A stretch of DNA of 32,977 nt, taken from Candidatus Iainarchaeum sp. (GTDB lineage Archaea; Iainarchaeota; Iainarchaeia; JAADDC01). The position numbers and the translations under genes were made by a program. This document shows positions 9,969 through 27,303 of this stretch, in pieces; positions within the stretch are counted from its first letter, which is position 1, and each line of letters begins with the position of its first letter. Location of the stretch: assembly GCA_030445695.1 (NCBI GenBank), contig JASUTF010000007.1, positions 1 through 32,977 of the forward strand. Reading direction: 5' to 3'. The notes beneath the pieces were generated by a model. It saw nothing but the letters and a program-made list of their open reading frames with translations. It had not been told where the DNA came from and made no database searches.

Positions 9969-10095
9969 GATAGAAAAATCGTAACCCCGCCCCTCCGCAG
10001 TAATAATACGTATTTTTGTGCTTATAAAATAGCACGAATCTGTAATGCAGTATATTTTCGTGCGAAGAAGTTCTGGCATCTGGGGCACGTTTTTA

Positions 10096-10109
10096 TTAAC
10101 AATTGTTAA
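10096..10109. promoter_or_regulatory. Palindromic operator candidate TTAACAATTGTTAA upstream of the HTH-sufS operon
   Basis: Perfect 14-bp palindrome, 11 nt before the likely GTG start at 10121, overlapping a TATA-like tract. Confidence 0.65.
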
Positions 10110-10120
10110 ACCTTGTTACT

Positions 10121-10447
10121 GTGAAGAACCCGAAGACGCCGTGCGAAGTCATATTCTGGCAGATCCTCCCGGCGGTAAGGCGAGAGTTAGCAAGGGAACT
10201 CGTCAAAAGAGGGTTAAAGCAAAGGGAAGTGGCAGAGATGCTCGGGCTGACACCGGCCGCGCTGACGCAATACTTGAAGGGCAAGAGGGGAAAGACCGAA
10301 CTGCCAGAGTGGATAAAGGAGAAAATCCGTGATTACGCTGGAAGAGCAGATTGCATAAACCTGTGCGACGTGTGTACGGATATCCGTAAAGACAAACGGT
10401 TTGTTGAAACGTTCCTGAAGACAAAAGGGGGGTGTATGAGTGCGTAA
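10121..10447 (+). CDS. XRE-type HTH transcriptional regulator with C-terminal Cys cluster (archaeal COG2522-like)
   Basis: PCEVIFWQILPAVRRELARELVKRGLKQREVAEMLGLTPAALTQYLKGKRG; C-terminal CINLCDVC...GGC; GTG start at 10121 preferred over TTG at 10103; overlaps sufS by 8 nt. Confidence 0.82.
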   Translation: MKNPKTPCEVIFWQILPAVRRELARELVKRGLKQREVAEMLGLTPAALTQYLKGKRGKTELPEWIKEKIRDYAGRADCINLCDVCTDIRKDKRFVETFLKTKGGCMSA

Positions 10448-11630
10448 CGTGAAGGACGACTTTCCCATACTCAAGAACAGGGATATCGTGTATCTGGACA
10501 ACGCGGCCACCACGCAGAAGCCAAAAAGTGTTATTGAAGCAATCAAGGAGTTCTACGAGTATCACAACGCGAACATACATCGTGGAATCTACCCGCTGGC
10601 CCGAGAGGCAACGGAGATGTACGAAGGGGCCCACGAAAGAGTTGCAAAGTTCATCGGCGGGAAGATGGAGGAAACTGTGTTCGTCCGTAACGCGTCGGAG
10701 GGACTGAACCTTGCGGCGTGGATTCTGAAGGACAGGATAGGGAAAGGTGACAAAATCATAACAACCATGTCAGAACACCACAGCAACTTCCTGCCCTGGT
10801 TCAAGATAGCGAGGATGAGGGGCGCGAGGGTCGATGTTATCCCCACGAAGGAGGACGGCTCGATAGATGAGGAAAAAATAATCGAAGCCATTGACTCAAG
10901 GACGAAAATCGTGGCGGTTCAGCACGCGTCCAACGTGACGGGGTACATAACGGACGTGAAGGAGATAGCAAGAGCCGCCCACGATAACGGCGCAGTCATC
11001 GTGGTGGACGGAGCCCAGAGCGTCCCGCACATACCCATAGACGTGAAAAAGCTGGGAATAGATGCTCTTGCCTTCTCCGCTCACAAGATGCTCGGACCGA
11101 CGGGAATAGGCGCGCTCTGGATGAAGGCGGACCTTCTCGAAGAGGGAGAGCCGTTCCTTGAAGGGGGAGACATGATAAAGGAGGTCCACTACAACAGTGA
11201 ATTACAGGTCATTTACAACGACCTGCCGTGGAAGTACGAGGCAGGGACGCCGAACATCGCCGGTGGTGTGGGATTCGCCGCGGCAGTGGACTATTTAGAA
11301 CGTTACGGCATGGAGAACATCCTGCCACACGAACAGAAACTGGCGAAGCGTATAATGAATGGCCTCGAGGAAATGGGCGTTCCCTTCGTCGGGCCGAGGG
11401 ATATAAAGAGAAGGGGCGGCGTGGTGGCGTTCAGCGTGCCAGGAAAGAACCCGTACACCGTTGCCCTCTACCTGGGAACGAAGAACGTGTGCGTCCGTGC
11501 AGGTTACCACTGCGCGCAGCCACTTCACGAATCTTTAGGTATTAAAGGAACCGTGCGCGCATCGCTATACATATACAACGACGAAGAGGACGTTGAAAAG
11601 TTCCTGGAGGCGCTGGAGGGGATGCCATGA
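10440..11630 (+). CDS. sufS: Cysteine desulfurase SufS
   Basis: YLDNAATTQKP, SEHHSNFLPW, AFSAHKMLGPTGIGALW (PLP Lys), RAGYHCAQPLH active-site Cys. Confidence 0.95.
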   Translation: MRNVKDDFPILKNRDIVYLDNAATTQKPKSVIEAIKEFYEYHNANIHRGIYPLAREATEMYEGAHERVAKFIGGKMEETVFVRNASEGLNLAAWILKDRIGKGDKIITTMSEHHSNFLPWFKIARMRGARVDVIPTKEDGSIDEEKIIEAIDSRTKIVAVQHASNVTGYITDVKEIARAAHDNGAVIVVDGAQSVPHIPIDVKKLGIDALAFSAHKMLGPTGIGALWMKADLLEEGEPFLEGGDMIKEVHYNSELQVIYNDLPWKYEAGTPNIAGGVGFAAAVDYLERYGMENILPHEQKLAKRIMNGLEEMGVPFVGPRDIKRRGGVVAFSVPGKNPYTVALYLGTKNVCVRAGYHCAQPLHESLGIKGTVRASLYIYNDEEDVEKFLEALEGMP

Positions 11631-11851
11631 AGACATACGACCTGAGGAACGCGGGGGAGGGCTGTATCGACAACCCTGCGTTAGCACTATTAGACGTGTT
11701 CGCGAAGAGGGATAGGGAATTGCAAGTAATCGTAAAGGCGGAGGACATCCCCCTTGAAGTGCTCAGGGACGTGGCGAGGAGTTGCGGCTACGAAGTAAAG
11801 AGCAGCAGGGAAGAAGACGGTTTACTGGTGGCGGTGCTGGTGCGCAGTTAA
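11627..11851 (+). CDS. TusA-like sulfur carrier family protein
   Basis: 74 aa, YDLRNAGEGCIDNPALALLDVF... TusA-fold-like pattern; overlaps sufS end (ATGA). Confidence 0.65.
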   Translation: MKTYDLRNAGEGCIDNPALALLDVFAKRDRELQVIVKAEDIPLEVLRDVARSCGYEVKSSREEDGLLVAVLVRS

Positions 11852-11860
11852 CAATGTTAA
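11848..11860. promoter_or_regulatory. Palindromic operator candidate TTAACAATGTTAA upstream of the NifX-CDF-MinD operon
   Basis: 6-bp inverted repeat with 1-nt centre, matches sites at 10096 and 18138; TTTAAA TATA-like element at 11865-11870. Confidence 0.6.
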
Positions 11861-11893
11861 ACCGTTTAAACACATCCCTCCTGAAATAGAAAC

Positions 11894-12313
11894 ATGAAGG
11901 TAGCAATCACTGCAATGGGTCCGGGCTTGAACGCGGCGTTCTCTCCGGTGTTTGGGCGTGCTCCATACTTCGTTATTGTTGAAGTCGATGGAGGTAACGT
12001 TTCAGAGATAAAGAGCATTCCCAACCCTGCAGCACAGGCGGCACGCTCTGCGGGAATAATAGCAGCACAGACACTCGTCAGCGAGGGAGTTTCCGCAGTC
12101 ATATCCGGGTCGATAGGGCCTAACGCGCACATGGTCCTCTCGCAGGCAGGCATAGGCATGTACTCCTGCGGGGGTGCAACGGTCTTAGACGTGGCAAGGG
12201 CTTTCGCTCAGAACGCGTGCACCCCAATTACAGCGCCTGGCAGATACGGACCAGGGTACGGCAGAGGTAGAGGATGGGGCCGCGGAGGCGGCTGGGGGCG
12301 AGGGCCATGGTAG
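11894..12313 (+). CDS. NifX/NifB-associated-type (dinitrogenase Fe-Mo cofactor biosynthesis domain) protein with Gly/Arg/Trp-rich tail
   Basis: KVAITAMGPGLNAAFSPVFGRAPYFVIVEVDGG...; tail GRYGPGYGRGRGWGRGGGWGRGPW. Confidence 0.88.
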   Translation: MKVAITAMGPGLNAAFSPVFGRAPYFVIVEVDGGNVSEIKSIPNPAAQAARSAGIIAAQTLVSEGVSAVISGSIGPNAHMVLSQAGIGMYSCGGATVLDVARAFAQNACTPITAPGRYGPGYGRGRGWGRGGGWGRGPW

Positions 12314-13524
12314 ACATTGAGCACGGAGAGAGAACGGCACAGAGGGCAACCATACTCGTAGCGCTCCTTGCAACGCTGAAGGGAATCGTTGGATTCGTCA
12401 CGAACTCAGCAGCAATGCTCGCCGACGCACTCCACTCCACAGTAGACGTCATGACCGCAGCGGCGACGTGGATTGGCCTTAAAATTGCGAGAAGACCGGC
12501 GGACCAGAAATTCCCCTACGGATACTACCGCGCAGAGTCGCTGGTGGCACTCCTCGTGGCTGGCATCGTCCTCTGGGGCTCCGTGGAACTGTTCCTGGAT
12601 GGAGTGCATCGCATACAGCATCCGGAACTGGTTGAAATGCCATGGCTTGCGGCGGGCATGGCACTCATAGCATCTGTAACGTCATACTATATTTCCAAAA
12701 TGGAGAAAGAGGCCGCGGAAGTGTCCAACTCTCAAGCACTCAAGGCAGTGTCCGTGGAATCCTTGGCTGACACGCTATCGTCCCTCGTAGTGTTCCTGGC
12801 CATCGTTGCCGGCTCGTATCTCCACGTGCCCTGGGCTGAAGGCGTCGGTGCGCTCCTGGTAGCCGCGTGGGTCTTCAAGATCGGAGCAGAGATGCTGTGG
12901 AACGCGGTTCTATCCCTCATGGACGTGGCACCGGAAGATGTCGAAAAGGAAGTAGAAGAGATTCTGAGGCACGTGGACGAAATTACTGGATACAAAGACC
13001 TGCGACTAAGGCGTTCCGGACCAGTGGTGTTCGGCGAGGTGATTGTATTCATTCCAGCGGACGTGCCAGTGGCCAAGGCGGACGAGATTGCCCGAAGAGT
13101 CCAGGAGTACATCCTAACGGTTCCAGAAATTGAGGACTTCCGCGTCTACGTGGAGAGGGAAGAGCCCAGGAAAAAGAAAGTTATAATCCCGGTAACGGAG
13201 GATGGGAAAGTAGCAGGAACCTTCGCAACGGCACCGAAGTTCGCAGTGTTCGTGGCAGACAGCGGGATAAGGAAAGAGAAAGAGATTGAGAACATAGCGA
13301 GAAAGAGAAAGGTCCGTCGCGGCCTAGCGGCGGCCAAACTCGTGCTGGAGGAAAAGCCGTATGCCGTAATCGTGAAGAACATCGGGGAGATATCATACCA
13401 CACGCTCAAGGACGCTTTAGTAACAATACACAGAACAACAGCGGAAGAACCTGAAGAAGCGGTGAAAGAGTTCCTCGAAGGAAAAACAGAGGAACTACAC
13501 GCACCGACGGTGAAAAAGGAATGA
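12307..13524 (+). CDS. Cation diffusion facilitator (CDF) transporter with C-terminal NifX-like domain
   Basis: MVDIEHGERTAQRATILVALLATLKGIVGFVTNSAAMLADALHSTVDVMTAAATWIGL CDF core; C-terminal KVIIPVTEDGKVAGTFATAPKFAVFVAD...; ATGGTAG overlap with upstream stop. Confidence 0.88.
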   Translation: MVDIEHGERTAQRATILVALLATLKGIVGFVTNSAAMLADALHSTVDVMTAAATWIGLKIARRPADQKFPYGYYRAESLVALLVAGIVLWGSVELFLDGVHRIQHPELVEMPWLAAGMALIASVTSYYISKMEKEAAEVSNSQALKAVSVESLADTLSSLVVFLAIVAGSYLHVPWAEGVGALLVAAWVFKIGAEMLWNAVLSLMDVAPEDVEKEVEEILRHVDEITGYKDLRLRRSGPVVFGEVIVFIPADVPVAKADEIARRVQEYILTVPEIEDFRVYVEREEPRKKKVIIPVTEDGKVAGTFATAPKFAVFVADSGIRKEKEIENIARKRKVRRGLAAAKLVLEEKPYAVIVKNIGEISYHTLKDALVTIHRTTAEEPEEAVKEFLEGKTEELHAPTVKKE

Positions 13525-14315
13525 TTATCGCAGTAACGGGAGGAAAAGGAGGCACAGGGAAGACCACCGTAGCCCTTTCGCTTGCACTGACGTGGAGGAA
13601 GCCCGTAACGTACATAGACGCTGACGTGGAAACCCCCAACGCGGCCATTCTCCTTGGAACAGAGATGGAAAGAATCGGGGCGGCGTACAAGAGCATTCCC
13701 GTCATAGACGAGGAGAAGTGCATCAAATGCGGACTGTGTGCACATGCCTGCCCCGTTGCAGCTCTTGTCTTCATTCCCGGAAAGGTGCCCCTGTTCATAG
13801 AGGAGAACTGCGTCGGCTGCATGCTCTGCAAGGACGTCTGCCCGGTGGGAGCAATAAGAGAGGAAAAGAAGGAGATTGGAATTATACGCGAGGGGGAACA
13901 CGAACACATCACGCTCTACGATGGATTGCTTGACCCAACGGAAGAGGAAGCAGCCCCACTCGTTGAAGAGCTACTGAGGAGAGCATTGAACGACGCGAAG
14001 GGAGACGTGATTATCGACACAGCAGCGGGAATCCACTGCAACGTTGCAAGGGCGATAATGCCTGCGGATAAAGTAATCATCGTGACAGAACCGACGCCCT
14101 ACGGTGTTCACGACCTGGAGAAGATAGTAAAACTGGTGGAAACGCTGGAGAAGCCGTATGAAATCTACGCAAACAAGTGGGGGATTAACGGGGCATGCCA
14201 GAAAAGGATAGAGGAAATAGCGAGGGAAAAGGGCGTAAAACTTACAAAAATACAGTTCAGCGAGGATTTTGCCCGTAAATACGCAAAAGGGGCGTTCGAA
14301 CCGGTGATTCAATGA
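13521..14315 (+). CDS. MinD-family P-loop ATPase with inserted 2x[4Fe-4S] ferredoxin domain
   Basis: GGKGGTGKTT Walker A, CIKCGLCAHACP and CVGCMLCKDVCP. Confidence 0.93.
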   Translation: MIIAVTGGKGGTGKTTVALSLALTWRKPVTYIDADVETPNAAILLGTEMERIGAAYKSIPVIDEEKCIKCGLCAHACPVAALVFIPGKVPLFIEENCVGCMLCKDVCPVGAIREEKKEIGIIREGEHEHITLYDGLLDPTEEEAAPLVEELLRRALNDAKGDVIIDTAAGIHCNVARAIMPADKVIIVTEPTPYGVHDLEKIVKLVETLEKPYEIYANKWGINGACQKRIEEIAREKGVKLTKIQFSEDFARKYAKGAFEPVIQ

Positions 14316-15133
14316 TCATAACGGTTGCTTCAGGAAAGGGGGGCGCTGGAAAGACAACGGTAACCGCAAGCATAGCGCATGTGCTCCCAAAGGACAAAAC
14401 ATACCTCTTAGACGCGGACGTGGACACGCCGAACCTGGCGCTGGCCCTTGGACTGGAAAAGCCAGAGAAAAAAGAGGAGTGGTGGGGCGGAGTCGTCTCA
14501 GAGTTTGTAGGGAACGAACCGCACCCAGAAGCATGTCCATTTGGTGCAATAGGACTGGACGGAACAGTCAACGAACTACTGTGCGAGGGCTGCGGTGCCT
14601 GTGCGAAGAGATTCCCTGAATCGTACCGGCTGAAGAACGTCCACACCGCGGACATCCTCTGGTATTCCTGGAACGGTGTCCCCCTGCTGACCGCAGAACT
14701 GATGCCGGGACGTTCAGGTTCGGGGAAGATAGTGACGGAACTGCGTATGAGAGCGGAGAAGGAGATGGCAGAAAAGGGAAGAGACGTTCTGTTAATTGAT
14801 GCGGCCGCAGGCAGGGGCTGTCCGGTGATTGCATCGCTGAGGGGGAGTGACTATGCCATCATTGTGGTGGACAACACACCAACGGGTATTGAGGATGCTC
14901 TACAGGTGTTGAACGTTGTAGAGCATTTCAGCATACCCTTCGGCTACGTAATAAACCGGGCGGACATAGTGCCAGAGAGAGTGGAAAAGATTGAGGAGAT
15001 TTTTGGAAAACGGAGGGGAGGAGAAAAACTGGGGGAGATTCCATACATTCAGGACGTTCTAAAGACGTATCCGCCCCCCTTCGAGCGTGTTCTGGAGTAC
15101 ATCAACGTGGAAGAGATTCTGAAAAAGATTTAA
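14312..15133 (+). CDS. MinD-family P-loop ATPase with degenerate ferredoxin insert
   Basis: SGKGGAGKTT Walker A; insert with only four Cys (EACPFGAI...CEGCGAC). Confidence 0.9.
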   Translation: MIITVASGKGGAGKTTVTASIAHVLPKDKTYLLDADVDTPNLALALGLEKPEKKEEWWGGVVSEFVGNEPHPEACPFGAIGLDGTVNELLCEGCGACAKRFPESYRLKNVHTADILWYSWNGVPLLTAELMPGRSGSGKIVTELRMRAEKEMAEKGRDVLLIDAAAGRGCPVIASLRGSDYAIIVVDNTPTGIEDALQVLNVVEHFSIPFGYVINRADIVPERVEKIEEIFGKRRGGEKLGEIPYIQDVLKTYPPPFERVLEYINVEEILKKI

Positions 15134-16124
15134 TCGCAGAAATCACTCGTTCATCGGAAGCGAGATTGCCCACATACTGCTCTATAAGTTTCTCGACGTA
15201 AACAGATAGTGCTTCGGATGCAGGCAGCCCACGGGTCTGGAGATATAATATCTGCTCGTCGGACAGGGATAAATCACGGGAACGGTGAGACGCACGGATA
15301 ACATTGTCCGTCAGGACTTCGAGCATGGGGGCAGAAACTGCAAGCCCGCCCGTGGTGTAAAAGGCGGAATCCATGTCCGCGTCTGTGCCCGATGAAGTAC
15401 GGGCAACACGGATGGCTCCACGGTGCACGACAAAATCATCTGGGGCAGAAAAAACGGCGTGAGCGATGCGTATCACGTTGTCATTGCCGCTAACAAAGGC
15501 GTTCGTAATTAGGTCGCTCCTACCGCGAATGGATGCACCAGAGTATGATACGCGAGAGCCGGAACCGTTCAGGAAGAATTCGTGGTGAACATGAGTGTTA
15601 ATTCCTAAAACAGCAGAGTTCACGGACAGTTCAGACGAATCGCCAAGGTGGTAACGGATGTGCAAATACTGGGAGTGCTGACCGGAGATAAAGACGGAGA
15701 GATTGACGTGAGCGCCGGGACGAACGAGCATGTCGAGGGTAGCGGATTTCGGGCCGGTAGAAGCAAGGTCCTCAATGTGCACGTTCCTATCCCCGTCCAG
15801 GCAGAAGAGAACGTGTTGAAGTGCCAAGGAATTCCTCTCCGACTCAAGGATAATTGTATCGGAGTCGGCAACGAACGCTCCGGGAAGGTGAGAGAAGTGG
15901 TATGCGAGCATCCTGTTCTCTTCAGGTTGGAAGGAGAATGACGTAAGTTTGTCCGTTGCCGTGGCGCCGGATACTTTTCCGGATGATGCGGGAAGAGAAA
16001 AGGCGTTTTCAAATGCGGACCAGTCCGTGTAACTCTTTACAGTGGGGGAGTCACCGTAGGGCTGGAATGACGTCTTCGGTAGTGCTTTTTTGGCCCGTTC
16101 GCGAATCTTTTCAATCGAAATCAT
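15102..16124 (-). CDS. sufD: Fe-S assembly scaffold SufD (SufB/SufD family)
   Basis: SufB/D beta-helix features, C-terminal LSLSDEQILYLQTRGLPASEA; overlaps sufB by 4 nt. Confidence 0.85.
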   Translation of the reverse strand: MISIEKIRERAKKALPKTSFQPYGDSPTVKSYTDWSAFENAFSLPASSGKVSGATATDKLTSFSFQPEENRMLAYHFSHLPGAFVADSDTIILESERNSLALQHVLFCLDGDRNVHIEDLASTGPKSATLDMLVRPGAHVNLSVFISGQHSQYLHIRYHLGDSSELSVNSAVLGINTHVHHEFFLNGSGSRVSYSGASIRGRSDLITNAFVSGNDNVIRIAHAVFSAPDDFVVHRGAIRVARTSSGTDADMDSAFYTTGGLAVSAPMLEVLTDNVIRASHRSRDLSLSDEQILYLQTRGLPASEALSVYVEKLIEQYVGNLASDERVISAIKSFSESLPR

Positions 16125-17437
16125 CCCACACCACCGGAGAAGTCAGCGTTCAGCACCTCGCGGAGAACAGAGGCGTATTCTAACGGTAAACCACGGAGGA
16201 TATCCTGGATGAAACCGAGGACGGCAAGACCCTTCGCCTCTTCCTCGTTCAAACCGCGGGACTGTAAATAGAATAATTGGTCCTCGGAGAAACGCACGGT
16301 GGTCGCCTCGTGGGTGAACACCGCAGTTGGCTCGTCCACCTGGGCGTGTGGATAAGTAGACGCCTCGCTCTCGCCGTCAAGGATGAGTGAATCACAGGAA
16401 ACGTGGGAGAACGCGTTCTTCGCACCCTTCAAAATGCGAACAAGCCCGCGGTAAATGTTCACGCCGCCATCAGACGATACGCTCTTTGACACTACAGTGC
16501 TCCTCGTGTTGGGAGCCACGTGGAATATCTTTGCCCCGCCGTCCTTCACGTAGGGCCCGTGGGAAAGAGAAAACACGTTCATCGTCGTTCTCGCTCCCTC
16601 GCCGCGAAGGACAACGGAGGGGTAGACGATGGACGTCTTCGCGCCTATGCTTCCTTCCACCCATTCCACAAAGGCGTTCCTCTCCGCAATGGCCCTTTTG
16701 TTGTTGAAGTTGATGATGTTCTTGCTCCAGTTCTGCACAGTGGTGAACTTCACATAAGCGTTTTCCGCTGCGTAAATCTCAACAGCACCGTCATGGAAGG
16801 AAAATTTTCTGAACCGCGGGGCAGAACAACCCTCAATGAAATGAACCTCCGATCCCCTGTCCGCAACGATTAACGTATGCTCGAACTGTCCCTCAAGCTC
16901 CGTGGATATGTAGAAGAACGCCTCAATGGGGAGATCCAGTTTCACGCCTGGGGGGACGTAGAGGAAAACACCGCCGGACCAGAGGGCGTAGTGAAGGGCC
17001 GAGTACTTGTGCTCGGCAGGGGGAAATATGCGGGAGAAGTACTTGCGCACCAGATCGGGATAGTTAAGAACCGCGTCGTGCATGGGTTCCAGAATCACGC
17101 CTTTCTCGCGGAGAGGTTCGAGAACCCTTGAGTATATTGTCTCGCTGTCCAATGACGTTGAAAGGCCCGCGAGGTACTCCTTTTCATACTCCGGAAGGTT
17201 GAGACGCTCGTAAAGCCGGCGAATATCTTCAGGAAGTTCCTCCCAAGACGTGGCGGGCCTCACCCCGGGATCCTTGTAGAGAATTAGGTCTTCCACGTTG
17301 AGCCCTTCCACCCCGTGGATCCATTTGGGCTCGGGCAGACGGTTGTAAAGTTCCAAAGCGTTCAGACGTATCTTCAGCATCCAGTCCGGCTCGTTGTGCG
17401 CCTCGGATATCTCGCGAACAATGGAAGGGTCAATCAT
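16121..17437 (-). CDS. sufB: Fe-S assembly scaffold SufB
   Basis: PPGVKLDLPIEAFF, HFIEGCSAP, TTVQNWSKNIINFNNKRA, EATTVRFSEDQLFYLQSRGLNEEEAKGL. Confidence 0.95.
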   Translation of the reverse strand: MIDPSIVREISEAHNEPDWMLKIRLNALELYNRLPEPKWIHGVEGLNVEDLILYKDPGVRPATSWEELPEDIRRLYERLNLPEYEKEYLAGLSTSLDSETIYSRVLEPLREKGVILEPMHDAVLNYPDLVRKYFSRIFPPAEHKYSALHYALWSGGVFLYVPPGVKLDLPIEAFFYISTELEGQFEHTLIVADRGSEVHFIEGCSAPRFRKFSFHDGAVEIYAAENAYVKFTTVQNWSKNIINFNNKRAIAERNAFVEWVEGSIGAKTSIVYPSVVLRGEGARTTMNVFSLSHGPYVKDGGAKIFHVAPNTRSTVVSKSVSSDGGVNIYRGLVRILKGAKNAFSHVSCDSLILDGESEASTYPHAQVDEPTAVFTHEATTVRFSEDQLFYLQSRGLNEEEAKGLAVLGFIQDILRGLPLEYASVLREVLNADFSGGVG

Positions 17438-18134
17438 AGAACCCCGCCTTCAGCACGTCCTCAAGGACTTCTGGGCCGCCGGAGCGTTCAATCCTGCCAT
17501 CCCTGAGCACATAAACACGATTCGGCGAGATCATCTGCAGTAGAGCTGGATTGTGGGAAACAAGGAGCACGCCCTTTTCCGCGGATACGAGATCGTTAAT
17601 GATTGCCGCGATTTGCTTCAGGCCGTCCACATCCACTCCGCTGTCAATCTCGTCGAGCAGAACATATTTTTTGTTAAGAAATAATGCTTGGAGAAGCTCG
17701 GAACGCTTCTTCTCACCGCCGGAGAAGCCCTTGTTCAGCGGACGGGAGATGTAGGACGGGTCAAGGCCAACGCGGGAAGCGGCCTGCACCAGTTCAGAAA
17801 ACGCTTTGGGGTCACGCTCCCTCCCGGCGGCTCGGAGGAGAACGGTGGCGAGAGTGACACCGTCAAACTCCGGCGGGGTCTGGAAAGCCAGGAACAGGCC
17901 CTTCCTTGCCCGTTCGTCTGGAGGGAGACGCGTTATATCCTCACCGTCCAGAAGGATCCGGCCAGAAACCACTTTGTATCTCGGGTCGCCCGCGATTGTT
18001 CTGAGGAGGGACGACTTGCCGGAACCGTTGGGCCCCACGAGAACCACAAGCTCGCCGGGGCTCAAAAGCAGGTCAATGTCATGAATAACGTCCTTTTCGT
18101 CGACACGGACGGAAAGGTTCTCCACCTCGAGCAC
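17430..18134 (-). CDS. sufC: Fe-S assembly ATPase SufC
   Basis: VGPNGSGKSSLLRTIAG Walker A, FSGGEKKRSELLQ signature, LLDEIDSGVDVDGLK; GTG start. Confidence 0.95.
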   Translation of the reverse strand: MLEVENLSVRVDEKDVIHDIDLLLSPGELVVLVGPNGSGKSSLLRTIAGDPRYKVVSGRILLDGEDITRLPPDERARKGLFLAFQTPPEFDGVTLATVLLRAAGRERDPKAFSELVQAASRVGLDPSYISRPLNKGFSGGEKKRSELLQALFLNKKYVLLDEIDSGVDVDGLKQIAAIINDLVSAEKGVLLVSHNPALLQMISPNRVYVLRDGRIERSGGPEVLEDVLKAGFYD

Positions 18135-18136
18135 GC

Positions 18137-18151
18137 TTTAACAGTGTTAAA
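18137..18151. promoter_or_regulatory. Palindromic operator candidate TTTAACAGTGTTAAA upstream of sufCBD
   Basis: 15-bp palindrome (7+1+7), 2 nt from the sufC GTG start. Confidence 0.65.
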
Positions 18152-18156
18152 AAGGG

Positions 18157-18747
18157 TTAAAAAGAGTTGAGGATTTTCGGAAGTTCAGCGATGCGGGACG
18201 CGTGGAAGAAACGGAAGCCAGCACGCTCGGCAGCGATTCTGTCATACTCCGTGTCCCCAACGACCACCGCGTCACTCACGCCCAGCCGCCGGGCACCCAG
18301 AATGAACGGTTCCGGATCCGGCTTCCCGTGCTTAACGTCCTCGGCGGAAACAACGACGTCAAAGTACATACCGAGGGAAGGGTTTGTGGCACCAAACACC
18401 CACTGGACAAACTTTCGAGACGCAGACGTTACCAAGGCCATAGGGTATTTGCCGTGCAACGCGTCAAGGGCCTCGTAAACACCGGGAAGAACGCGGATCA
18501 TATGCAAATACTTGGGCGTGAACTCCCACTTCTTCTCGCGTATCTTCTGAACGGTAGCATCGTCCAGCTCCGGATAGAGCGAGCGAACAATATCCACGAA
18601 ACGTTTGCCCACCTGCTTGCGGAACGCCTCTTCCACCCCGGGCTTGCGGAGGATGTTCAGAGCATCCAACGCGTCCAGGAAGGAGTAGAGGTGCACGTCT
18701 GTGGAATCCACAAGCGTCCCGTCAAGGTCGAAGAGGATGCCGAGCAT
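18157..18747 (-). CDS. HAD-superfamily hydrolase (phosphoglycolate phosphatase-like)
   Basis: FDLDGTLVDST, TSASRKFV, KPDPEPFILGARRLG, VGDTEYD. Confidence 0.9.
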   Translation of the reverse strand: MLGILFDLDGTLVDSTDVHLYSFLDALDALNILRKPGVEEAFRKQVGKRFVDIVRSLYPELDDATVQKIREKKWEFTPKYLHMIRVLPGVYEALDALHGKYPMALVTSASRKFVQWVFGATNPSLGMYFDVVVSAEDVKHGKPDPEPFILGARRLGVSDAVVVGDTEYDRIAAERAGFRFFHASRIAELPKILNSF

Positions 18748-18755
18748 GGATTTAA

Positions 18756-19109
18756 ATGAAAGGAGAAAACAATATTATTGTGCTGGTAAACCGCACGAAG
18801 AACAAAATTCTCACAGAACGCGTAGATGTTGCCCACGACTTCTTCTCCCGCGCGTGGGGGCTCATGTTCCGGAAGAAATACGATGGAGCAATGGTGTTTC
18901 CCCACGTTGGTAAAACATCCTTCCACGGATTCTTCTGCTTCTTCCCCATCCTCCTCGTCTGCCTGGATGAACAGAACCGCGTCAAGGAAGCGAAAATACT
19001 GAAACCGTGGTCCGTCGTCTCCGTAAACTGCGAAACGGTGATAGAGCTGGACGCCAGAAAGGAATGGGATATAGAAAAGGGGGACGAGCTGGTCTGGGAT
19101 GAAGGTTGA
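18756..19109 (+). CDS. DUF192 family protein
   Basis: DFFSRAWGLMFRKK, HGFFCFFPILLVCLDEQNRVKEAKILKPW; ATG 18756 or GTG 18780. Confidence 0.82.
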   Translation: MKGENNIIVLVNRTKNKILTERVDVAHDFFSRAWGLMFRKKYDGAMVFPHVGKTSFHGFFCFFPILLVCLDEQNRVKEAKILKPWSVVSVNCETVIELDARKEWDIEKGDELVWDEG

Positions 19110-20613
19110 GGCAAGGGCAGATCTTTCGTCTGTCTGTCCCTACGAGCTGAAAGAGTCGAAGTGCGTGCACTGCAACCCTGAAGAGGCGCCCTGCGTTGTT
19201 GCCTGCCCGAAGGATGCAATATACGAGGTGGCAGACGGCGTTCTGGCCATTGATTATGATAAATGCGATGGCTGCGGCGAATGCGTGAAGGCCTGCCCCC
19301 ACGGTGCCATTGTCCTGAAAGAGGGAAAGGCGTTCAAGTGCGATCTATGCCTGTCGCTTTTTGATGAGCCGCAGTGTGTCCTTGCAGGGCTGGCAGGGAT
19401 CAAATACACGAGAAAGGAGCTGGAGGAGATATGGGAGACGCTGGGCTGGGCGTTCTTCGAGGACGGGGAGTATAAAGTGGATCTCCCGGAGATACGGCTG
19501 TGGGAGGCGCGGCTGCTCGGAGAGGTCGTCAGCAGATACATGAAGCTGCGCGGGGAGTTCTCGTGGGACGAAGTACTTGAGGGGCTCGAGTACGAGCAGG
19601 GAGAAATCCCAGAGGCGTCAAAGGAGCGTATTATGTGGTGGATAAGGAAAACCTATGAGGGCTATGGGCCGCTGGAGTTCCTCAACGGTCCGGAGATAGA
19701 AGAGATCGCGGTGGTGCGGCTCAGAGAGCCCATACGCATATACGTGAGGGGAGAGGGCTGGAAGACCACAAATCTTGCATTCTGGACGGAGGAGTACTTC
19801 AACGCGGTTGTAAACAGATTCGCAGCGTCCGTGGGCAGGAGAATAACGCTCAAAAACCCGAGAGTGAACGCCATCCTTCCTGACGGCTCACGTCTCCACG
19901 CGGTTGTGCCTCCCCTCTCTTCCGGACACGCCCTCACCATAAGAAGATTCACCGTGCGACGCTTCACACCGTGGGACCTCATAGAGAGGGGGACCGCAAC
20001 GCCGGAACAGCTCGCCCAGATATGGTATGCCATGGACGAGGAGAAGAACGTGATAATAGCTGGCAACACGGGATCCGGAAAGACCACAACACTGAATGCG
20101 GTTCTTTCCTTCGTCCCCATAAACGAGAGGATCGTGCTGGTGGAGGAAACGCCAGAGATAGAAATCCCGCATCCCCACAGCGTCCGTCTTGTCCCCACAG
20201 AAGACGTAAGTATGCAGGAACTCGTATACGACACGCTACGAATGAGGCCGGACCGCATTGTCGTGGGCGAGGTCAGAAGACCGGAGGAGATGCGCGCACT
20301 CTTTGACACCATGCTCGCGGGGCAGGGAAAGGGATCATACGCCACCATGCACGGCAGGACGGCGGAAGAGGCGATGCGGCGCATAAGAAGCATGGGTATC
20401 CCGGAGGAGGACCTGATCGCTCTGGATCTCTTAGTGGTGCAGAGGAGACGAGGAAGGGGCAGCATGGAGGAGCGTAAGATTATAGACGTGTTCTGGCCCA
20501 AGGGAGACACCCCTCCGGAAGAGGAAATCAAATGGAGGGCAGAGGCGCTTACGGAGATCAAGGAGCGGGATCTGAGGGCATACGCGGAGGCGGTGGAGCG
20601 GTGGCGTCGCTGA
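19099..20613 (+). CDS. Secretion/pilus ATPase (TadA/GspE-like) with N-terminal polyferredoxin domain
   Basis: N-terminus with 12 Cys (CVHCNPEEAPCVVACP, CDGCGECVKACP, CDLC...C) then GNTGSGKTTTLNAVLSFVP, VEETPEI, RMRPDRIVVGEVRRPEE, TMHGRTAEEAMRR. Confidence 0.92.
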   Translation: MKVEARADLSSVCPYELKESKCVHCNPEEAPCVVACPKDAIYEVADGVLAIDYDKCDGCGECVKACPHGAIVLKEGKAFKCDLCLSLFDEPQCVLAGLAGIKYTRKELEEIWETLGWAFFEDGEYKVDLPEIRLWEARLLGEVVSRYMKLRGEFSWDEVLEGLEYEQGEIPEASKERIMWWIRKTYEGYGPLEFLNGPEIEEIAVVRLREPIRIYVRGEGWKTTNLAFWTEEYFNAVVNRFAASVGRRITLKNPRVNAILPDGSRLHAVVPPLSSGHALTIRRFTVRRFTPWDLIERGTATPEQLAQIWYAMDEEKNVIIAGNTGSGKTTTLNAVLSFVPINERIVLVEETPEIEIPHPHSVRLVPTEDVSMQELVYDTLRMRPDRIVVGEVRRPEEMRALFDTMLAGQGKGSYATMHGRTAEEAMRRIRSMGIPEEDLIALDLLVVQRRRGRGSMEERKIIDVFWPKGDTPPEEEIKWRAEALTEIKERDLRAYAEAVERWRR

Positions 20614-26200: not shown

Positions 26201-27303
26201 TATCCCACCTTCTTCAGTGCCTCCTGTAATGCCCCAAAGGACTCCTTCAGCTTCTTGGTATCTATTTTTGAACAGTATTCACTCTTCTGGGCGCAGAGCA
26301 TAAGCGTGTCAATGTTCTTAACTACAGAGTCGCCCGTCTCGTCCAGATACGCTGCCCACATGGCTATCTTCTGCTTGTCAGACACGGGAAGGTCGTCAAC
26401 ACGGGACGGGCTGAAGTTGGGATCCAGAATCCCGCCGATGCCCATCTCCGGGCCGCCCTTCAACGCCACCTTTGCCCCGTCCGTGGTCTTGGCTATGTCG
26501 TCCAGTATGGAGTCCTTCACCTTGGAGACGGGGCCAGTTACCTTGCGCTTCAGAACCGTGGCCTTCTGGTATATCTTCCTCTTTGCGGAAGACGGCACGA
26601 AATTCCTCCAGACGTAGCCCCCACCCATCTCGACGATCATCTGGGCAGACGCCCCGACGTTGATATACTTGGTGAACAGGGAATACATCTCCTGGTCGCA
26701 GCCGTTGGAAGCACAGGTGGCCGTAACGCTGAAGTCCCGCGTGAGCACGACGTTCTTTATCCTCGGTCCCCCGGTGGCGTTCATACTGGCGAGCCGAACA
26801 AGGGCTTCCAGCTCCGTTTTTGCCGTGTTTAGAACTGCCTCCAATGCCTCCCGCGAAGTCCCGTACTCCATCCGGCCTTCAAAACGCTGCTGTAGTCCCT
26901 TATCATTCCCGTAGCCGATTTCCGAGTCCTTTGATATACGGAGAGTGTCGTCCAGAACGCTTACGAAGAAAACAGGGCCGATTATCGTTGTCCCCTCAGG
27001 GAAGAAATCCCCCTTGCGGAGATCCATGGCCCTGCTACCGTTGAAGTCCACGGGGTAATACGTGCCAGAGGCCTCGTCGATGACAGCCGTGCTTCCCCTG
27101 TTTATGGGAGAAACAGGTGGTCTCTCCGCAGGTCCGAAGCTATCGAGGGTTAGCACGCCGTTCTGCGAGTAGACCGCCTGAAGGAATCGCAGGTAATCCT
27201 TCGGACTGACCTGCTCGACGGAACACGTCTGTGCGTGGACCGCCGGGATCAGTAGAAGAGCTGCAAGTACCGCTCCAAGGACCAAGGGAACACGGCCACC
27301 CAT
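23212..27303 (-). CDS. Giant exported, C-terminally anchored protein (1363 aa) of unknown function
   Basis: Signal peptide MGGRVPLVLGAVLAALLLIPAVHA; C-terminal LMEPGETVLLIMMLAAVFSIIR. Confidence 0.75.
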   Translation of the reverse strand: MGGRVPLVLGAVLAALLLIPAVHAQTCSVEQVSPKDYLRFLQAVYSQNGVLTLDSFGPAERPPVSPINRGSTAVIDEASGTYYPVDFNGSRAMDLRKGDFFPEGTTIIGPVFFVSVLDDTLRISKDSEIGYGNDKGLQQRFEGRMEYGTSREALEAVLNTAKTELEALVRLASMNATGGPRIKNVVLTRDFSVTATCASNGCDQEMYSLFTKYINVGASAQMIVEMGGGYVWRNFVPSSAKRKIYQKATVLKRKVTGPVSKVKDSILDDIAKTTDGAKVALKGGPEMGIGGILDPNFSPSRVDDLPVSDKQKIAMWAAYLDETGDSVVKNIDTLMLCAQKSEYCSKIDTKKLKESFGALQEALKKVGYTDADLVVRVPSEKGYKTVPLSTFLDTISKATPDQLHGLLGYYDLDDLATKLKYAKENAHRLTGHLADQVPVVTTISSKINEVVAENVKGGWTTAAAEYTVTPLAFYIVKRLAMAPHENPFVATGAYHVPFFSGLLGEGLPLPESWRITLVYPPEEGGYRDSFVDVLINNGSDPGDAFKSLISLSGGALIHKAISEMLGREIPTGGIILTEEHTKKYEMGPAIFSAGFSTQDCPACVLTFGDGRMTLHGPESTPFLGSVVEDANALSEGATAILFGHHTNFRMGDGTEIDIPEAEREGKSCYDTCPLVSNEFARKIFGDNPASAVFILSYLQSMSAVAGAPGVVVSGAATMLLMKDCGECVDTKGGYYLHIRVPPQEDSQQIFELTANDALTSILDTASSVLGGVSEELAAEINAFKQRALAESIRNSGAYVQFHADGVPHAEFFPAKLIELWTKPREIVQNAVSSDGSISGESSDGRKALFDKVNGSVTIDGTTVIANPDLVRLSYVDNRVPGIVVPAWVIVSAFTENPAFVATPDGYVVKDSSFLQCFASKIPGGEPTTEFFRSIMGDIIVINTDRGTVDFGDRVVAATQDWSAYVSRAEVGSDYNVTVTASTFEINAEGNTLNVDLDSSEKDIGRLQSIIFENGAIYYSDGKLLVHIRRLVHFPGNYVKSISMGPNDEKNGINVTFTPTANAPDDVREQIDRLNRLIKEMGGINSILSEDAAIALFRDENGVLWLRIFDRNAMASLTVEQAYEILRSVLEGDGKYDTFEVLDGSLRVYRDGGSVILSYVDRTTGQRRELMVQSYSEDVNGYLLRTEEGEHVVSVSEQDGIIVALLDGVVYGPVVVPGAVEQERVLDMYQDPNTGALVVKTDKGTHTIQVKVDQNGLPQLLVDGLLKGIVQAMQGPRGFVTYDPDTGEWSFVAGLLTPIAEAFKNGIRISLDASGNAVATPAPWSFRPNPYLSSRSQGLSLPLMEPGETVLLIMMLAAVFSIIR

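Follow-up and report, generated by a model that had tools for sequence, protein, structure and literature searches.

Three matching palindromes stand before three operons for iron-sulfur (Fe-S) cluster or metal-cofactor assembly in a 32,977-nucleotide stretch of DNA (the window) from Candidatus Iainarchaeum sp., of the lineage Diapherotrites. Which regulator, if any, owns them? An original prediction, made from the letters of the window, pointed to the protein encoded behind the first palindrome. The comparisons described here lead us to a similar answer, to which we give a probability of about 80%: the palindromes are putative operators of this 108-aa XRE-type helix-turn-helix (HTH) protein, which would control its own operon, sufCBD and the nifX-CDF-MinD-MinD operon. 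The three sites are as follows.

10096..10109, no strand: 14-bp palindrome TTAACAATTGTTAA, before the HTH gene, of the AAC-N4-GTT type
11848..11860, no strand: 13-bp palindrome TTAACAATGTTAA, before nifX, directly upstream of a TATA-like box and over the B recognition element (BRE)
18138..18150, no strand: 13-bp palindrome TTAACAGTGTTAA (TTAACACTGTTAA read towards sufC), between a TATA-like box and the sufC start

All three were located where the original prediction had placed them, the sufC palindrome taking the longer form TTTAACAGTGTTAAA at 18137-18151. A pattern search for TTAACAN{1,2}TGTTAA found these 3 copies in the window (shuffle mean 0.00) and no fourth, bearing out the claim that there is no further full copy. 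Frequency across the genome had been proposed as a check, and the motif is not common elsewhere: the whole assembly (664,191 bases in 29 contigs, 88.6% complete; G000 below) holds the same three copies only, each directly preceding a Fe-S operon, and the reversed pattern, used as the control, gave 0. With up to two mismatches allowed, the 13-mer matched 15 sites in this genome against 6 control sites, and the exact form is therefore the special one. The gap from palindrome to start codon is 11 nt for the HTH gene (GTG 10121), 3 nt for sufC (GTG 18134, minus strand) and 33 nt for nifX (ATG 11894), which agrees with the statement that two of the three lie within about 25 nt of a start. The stop codon (11849-11851) of the small open reading frame (ORF) before nifX falls within the nifX site.

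The same association is found across the family. Ten genomes, including G000, were compared, and nine of them carried the exact motif, at 21 sites against 0 for the reversed control. Twenty of the 21 lie directly before sufC, HTH-sufS, nifX, SufT, a NifX-like gene or one unknown gene, and the remaining site is before a contig-end target in G082. Nine precede sufC, one per genome in G000 and eight of the nine other genomes. Two precede HTH-sufS (G000 and G080), three nifX (G000, G076 and G078), two SufT/DUF59 (PF01883; G078 and G084), two a second NifX-like gene (both in G079, in the same context on two contigs) and two the unknown gene, whose product begins MAKTTFEEE (G078 and G079). The nifX sites of G076 and G078 match the TTAACAATGTTAA site of G000 in both sequence and geometry. 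Footprinting upstream of sufC, HTH-sufS and nifX orthologues, another check that had been suggested, thus finds the motif conserved there. G077 (68% complete) has neither the HTH gene nor a site, and its SufT gene has no palindrome upstream; SufT was not found in the G000 assembly. Among the relatives, the Fe-S regulon is predicted to extend to SufT and to other NifX-type genes.

A wider form of the motif, TTAACN{3,4}GTTAA, gave 50 sites in the family against 3 controls. It adds SufT in G076, G079, G080, G082 and G083, a 2x4Fe-4S ferredoxin (G082), glutamate dehydrogenase (G080 and G083) and redox genes, and part of these wider sites sit in coding sequence and look like chance. The glutamate dehydrogenase sites of G080 and G083 have the N3 spacing, TTAACN3GTTAA, and contig 1 of G000 has a one-mismatch site, CTAACATTGTTAA, at 27143-27155 upstream of its glutamate dehydrogenase gene. 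The unknown MAKTTFEEE gene (G078 contig 40, 54117; G079 contig 95, 4013) encodes about 192 aa (MAKTTFEEEIYLRVLTGRLVGKAL...), has two operator-like palindromes before it and has no Pfam match; its product may be a novel protein with a link to Fe-S or sulfur.

The palindrome is linked to the HTH protein by their conserved adjacency, which marks the protein as the putative binder. Outside the family, in the rest of the phylum (Diapherotrites is one class in the set searched), the exact site adjoins the HTH orthologue in 12 genomes: G003, G004, G005, G040, G042, G043, G045, G047, G059, G063, G068 and G085. In the first ten of these, and also in G080, the sequence directly upstream is TTAACAATTGTTAA itself. 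Most of the site-bearing HTH genes in the 12 genomes head HTH-sufS or HTH-sufC-sufB operons, and in genomes without this HTH the motif lies mostly deep in long ORFs and never beside suf genes. We also took the 120 bp upstream of 107 distinct archaeal HTH homologues and compared them with shuffles. TAACN{3,4}GTTA was present in 43 of the 107 (shuffle mean 0.70, maximum 3) and in 19 of the 75 outside Diapherotrites (shuffle mean 0.52, maximum 3). With the half-sites the other way round, as GTTN{3,4}AAC, there was no enrichment (8/107, shuffle mean 8.7), and none of the other palindromes tried was enriched to the degree of TAACN{3,4}GTTA. The upstream regions of the remaining ORFs at these loci, taken as a control set, were partly enriched too (47/616), since each locus was retrieved around a site and targets are among those ORFs. 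Outside Diapherotrites, the HTH homologues L169, L174, L176, L177, L190, L195, L140 and L197 adjoin sufC/sufB or sufS, and most of these eight loci have a palindrome near the start (TTAACTATGGTTAA, TTAACAATTGTTAT, TTCACAATAGTGAA or similar).

With the exact motif confined to three promoters in the genome and conserved before orthologues, autoregulation and a local Fe-S regulon, as originally predicted, are well supported by comparative genomics, and the HTH-adjacent palindrome is conserved through the phylum and beyond. Very probably the HTH protein owns the palindrome and controls itself and a Fe-S/sulfur regulon. It would belong with the autoregulated regulators of Fe-S biogenesis, since a conserved putative operator stands before both its own gene and the suf genes.

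The protein matches PF01381 above the cut-off. It has the conserved segments LPaiRrELA, AA..QY and KRG, with P16, Y51 and R56 invariant in the alignment, and Cys residues at positions 8, 78, 82, 85 and 105, of which C82 and C85 align with the C-terminal CxxC of relatives. The model (predicted local distance difference test, pLDDT, 80.5) is all-helical, with six helices and a short helical tail that bears Cys residues. Neither sequence nor fold searches of the PDB turned up a helpful relative (the best fold match had E 0.15), and PHROGs gave generic HTH matches only. We take the family to be the COG2522-type predicted archaeal HTH regulators. The architecture PCEIIvW-LPaiRrELA...AAvsQYLkgKRG...CxxC was found in 172 of the 389 genomes searched, and a tight-alignment search of genome contigs returned seven loci, five from Diapherotrites or Micrarchaeota and two more from archaea. 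G000 has one gene only of this family. In G340 the HTH and Cys segment are fused to a ThiN domain (PF10120, E 3.2e-43), the arrangement known as ThiR.

Genes were called with Pfam and NCBIfam profiles, and the locus reads as follows.

10121..10447, + strand: XRE-type HTH regulator, 108 aa (HTH_3, PF01381, E 2.4e-7)
10440..11630, + strand: sufS, cysteine desulfurase, in one transcription unit with the HTH gene (TIGR01979, E 2e-142)
11627..11851, + strand: small ORF, third in the HTH-sufS unit (no profile match at E<0.001)
11894..12313, + strand: nifX-type protein, dinitrogenase iron-molybdenum cofactor domain (PF02579, E 1.1e-20)
12307..13524, + strand: CDF metal-ion transporter with a C-terminal NifX-type domain (PF01545, PF16916, PF02579)
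13521..14315, + strand: MinD/Mrp-like P-loop ATPase with two 4Fe-4S motifs (PF01656, PF00037)
14312..15133, + strand: second MinD/Mrp-like P-loop ATPase (PF01656, PF10609)
15102..16124, - strand: sufD-like (PF01458, E 1.6e-14)
16121..17437, - strand: sufB (TIGR01980, E 1.4e-172)
17430..18134, - strand: sufC (TIGR01978, E 4.3e-73)

The small ORF had been labelled tusA, a name that the Pfam and NCBIfam profiles did not confirm, as neither gave a convincing match; its orthologues come after sufS in G080 and G084. Beyond sufC, at 19099-20613, lies a secretion/pilus-type ATPase (VirB11-like, named by eye) whose N-terminal stretch has Cys motifs like those of 4Fe-4S ferredoxins; this unusual fusion stays near the sufC, HAD and DUF192 genes across the genus.

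How the protein might act depends on where the palindromes lie in the promoters. Three TATA-like boxes were placed from the sequence, with promoter alignment as a guide at the HTH gene and sufC.

10090..10097, + strand: predicted TATA-like box TTTTTATT, centre about 27 nt before GTG 10121, with the palindrome overlapping its downstream edge
11864..11871, + strand: TATA-like box GTTTAAAC, centre 26-27 nt before ATG 11894, conserved in G076 and partly in G078
18157..18163, - strand: predicted TATA-like box TTTTTAA, centre about 26 nt before the sufC start

Boxes 26-27 nt before the start would fit leaderless archaeal promoters. The HTH and sufC sites lie at or just downstream of the box, and 40 aligned promoters are most AT-rich at positions -13 to -7, counted from the operator. 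The nifX promoter has the opposite order, with the site (11848-11860) first, then GTTTAAAC and then ATG 11894; G076 has this order too, as does G078, whose box is weaker. The original prediction that binding would block TBP/TFB or the transcription start site suits the HTH and sufC promoters, and need not apply to nifX, where the site is upstream of the box. Sites of the archaeal regulator SurR activate when upstream of TATA and repress when downstream (PMC12162507). By analogy, the suf and HTH genes would be repressed; for nifX, either activation or repression through occlusion of the BRE is conceivable.

In the mechanism we propose, a dimer of the HTH protein would bind [T/A]TAAC-N3/4-GTTA[A/T] before its own HTH-sufS-small ORF operon, sufCBD and nifX-CDF-MinD-MinD. 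Where the operator is at or just downstream of a TATA-like box and within about 25 nt of a leaderless start, as for the HTH gene and sufC, and for SufT in relatives, binding would block assembly of the transcription complex or the start itself, giving repression and negative autoregulation. Over the BRE of nifX, binding would either exclude TFB or activate. The signal would probably come through the Cys residues of the tail; Fe-S binding by the protein is plausible, and our guess at what is sensed is Fe-S, iron or sulfur status, with suf derepressed when clusters are scarce.

Several findings weigh against a single HTH regulator of this kind. The HTH-adjacent site is mostly a 14-mer (N4) and the other targets have 13-mers (N3). 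The assembly is incomplete, and a second paralogue could be missing from it. The set of Cys residues varies, and in G080 and G084 the HTH linked to sufS lacks the CxxC. G076, G078 and G079 have another HTH subtype and no SufS, yet keep the sites at sufC and other targets. These three are of the same genus, and in them the variant HTH stands alone; that SufS was not detected suggests loss of the cysteine desulfurase.

The difference in spacing, N4 before HTH-sufS and N3 before sufC, nifX and SufT, is consistent, and could mean that the 13-mers before sufC and nifX belong to another regulator, for example a lost or unassembled HTH paralogue, leaving only the 14-mer to the protein at 10121. The sister genus g2 does have two HTH paralogues, and 88.6% completeness leaves room for one more here. 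We nevertheless regard this as unlikely, as G000 has a single HTH of the family, HTH homologues elsewhere are preceded by N3 sites of their own (a 13-mer in G085, TTAACNNCGTTAC in G076, G078 and G079), and the second g2 paralogue (L086, L099, L101, L090) has no clear palindrome. A few hundred bases downstream of that paralogue is a gene judged by eye to be ribonucleotide reductase-like.

An ArsR-type regulator as owner, in the manner of SurR for the sulfur genes of Thermococcales, is very improbable. The candidate (G000 contig 1, 29506-29814) is divergent from a PDO-like gene, and TTAACNNNGTTAA lies between the two in G000, G076, G078 and G079. However, it is absent from G080-G084, whose sufC and SufT sites remain, and SurR recognises not AACn3GTT but GTTn3AAC (PMC12162507), and it is the latter arrangement that showed no enrichment before the HTH genes. 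We rejected it as motif owner because it is absent from g2. In G000 the TTAACNNNGTTAA site is at contig 1, 29858-29870 (L200:5859), and the pairing of an ArsR-type HTH with a PDO-like thioredoxin/glutaredoxin recalls the SurR-PDO pair of Thermococcales. In favour of there being no regulator at all, with the palindromes due to chance in AT-rich DNA, to basal promoter elements or to RNA hairpins, is their overlap with AT-rich promoter stretches. We find this explanation scarcely credible: a loop of 1-2 nt cannot fold into a hairpin, the arms are not G+C-rich, and there is conservation at orthologous promoters. The explanation is refuted by the genome scan, with no copies elsewhere and a reversed control of 0, by the family footprint and by the wider-form counts (50 against 3).

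The HTH regulator can be set beside known systems. IscR and SufR sense through Cys-ligated clusters. Like SufR, the suf repressor (PMC6034842), IscR, and RisR, a bacterial repressor of Fe-S biogenesis (PMC9973013), it is encoded with suf or isc genes and would control both the operon it lies in and further genes of Fe-S assembly; unlike them, it is a short XRE-type HTH protein with another Cys layout, another operator and archaeal promoters. Profile searches detected no homology to these regulators: it matched no SufR profile in Pfam or NCBIfam, and had no Pfam match to Rrf2, the winged-helix type of IscR with its three clustered Cys residues. As far as can be read from sequence, it resembles SufR and IscR in working and not in ancestry. 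It shares the HTH lineage of archaeal ThiR, reportedly described by Rodionov and colleagues in 2017 as a thiamine regulator built of HTH and ThiN, as the G340 fusion indicates, but ends after the Cys segment, has no ThiN domain by Pfam, and is linked to Fe-S rather than thiamine genes. No characterised COG2522-type member without a ThiN domain was found in the literature searched. SurR, like the putative regulator here, is archaeal and acts on sulfur and redox genes, with an effect set by site position (PMC12162507), but SurR is an ArsR-type winged helix on GTTn3AAC and the system here is XRE-type (HTH_3) on AACn3/4GTT.

Our analysis adds to the original prediction the exclusivity of the motif in the genome, its conservation in family and phylum, the SufT and NifX-like targets, the AAC-N3/4-GTT common to archaeal HTH homologues and the reversed nifX geometry. 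To our knowledge, very little has been learned of regulons in uncultured DPANN archaea; here regulator, operator, targets and promoter geometry can all be read from sequence in an assembly of about 0.66 Mb. The literature searched yielded no account of this protein or of any regulator of suf genes or Fe-S cluster biogenesis in archaea, and no study of COG2522. The system would be a first view of how archaea control Fe-S biogenesis. Tentatively, and with more doubt than confidence, we suggest that several archaeal lineages may have, beside their suf genes, a Fe-S-sensing regulator of a non-bacterial type, which through one operator in two geometries would repress suf and itself where the site is at or downstream of TATA and activate nifX-CDF-MinD where it is upstream, switching between cluster making and metal-cofactor trafficking. 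The exact operator would allow function to be assigned to genes that carry it, such as the unknown MAKTT gene, the NifX-like proteins and SufT. Because related HTH genes carry AAC-N3/4-GTT upstream, it may also provide the operator code for a large, unstudied family of archaeal regulators.

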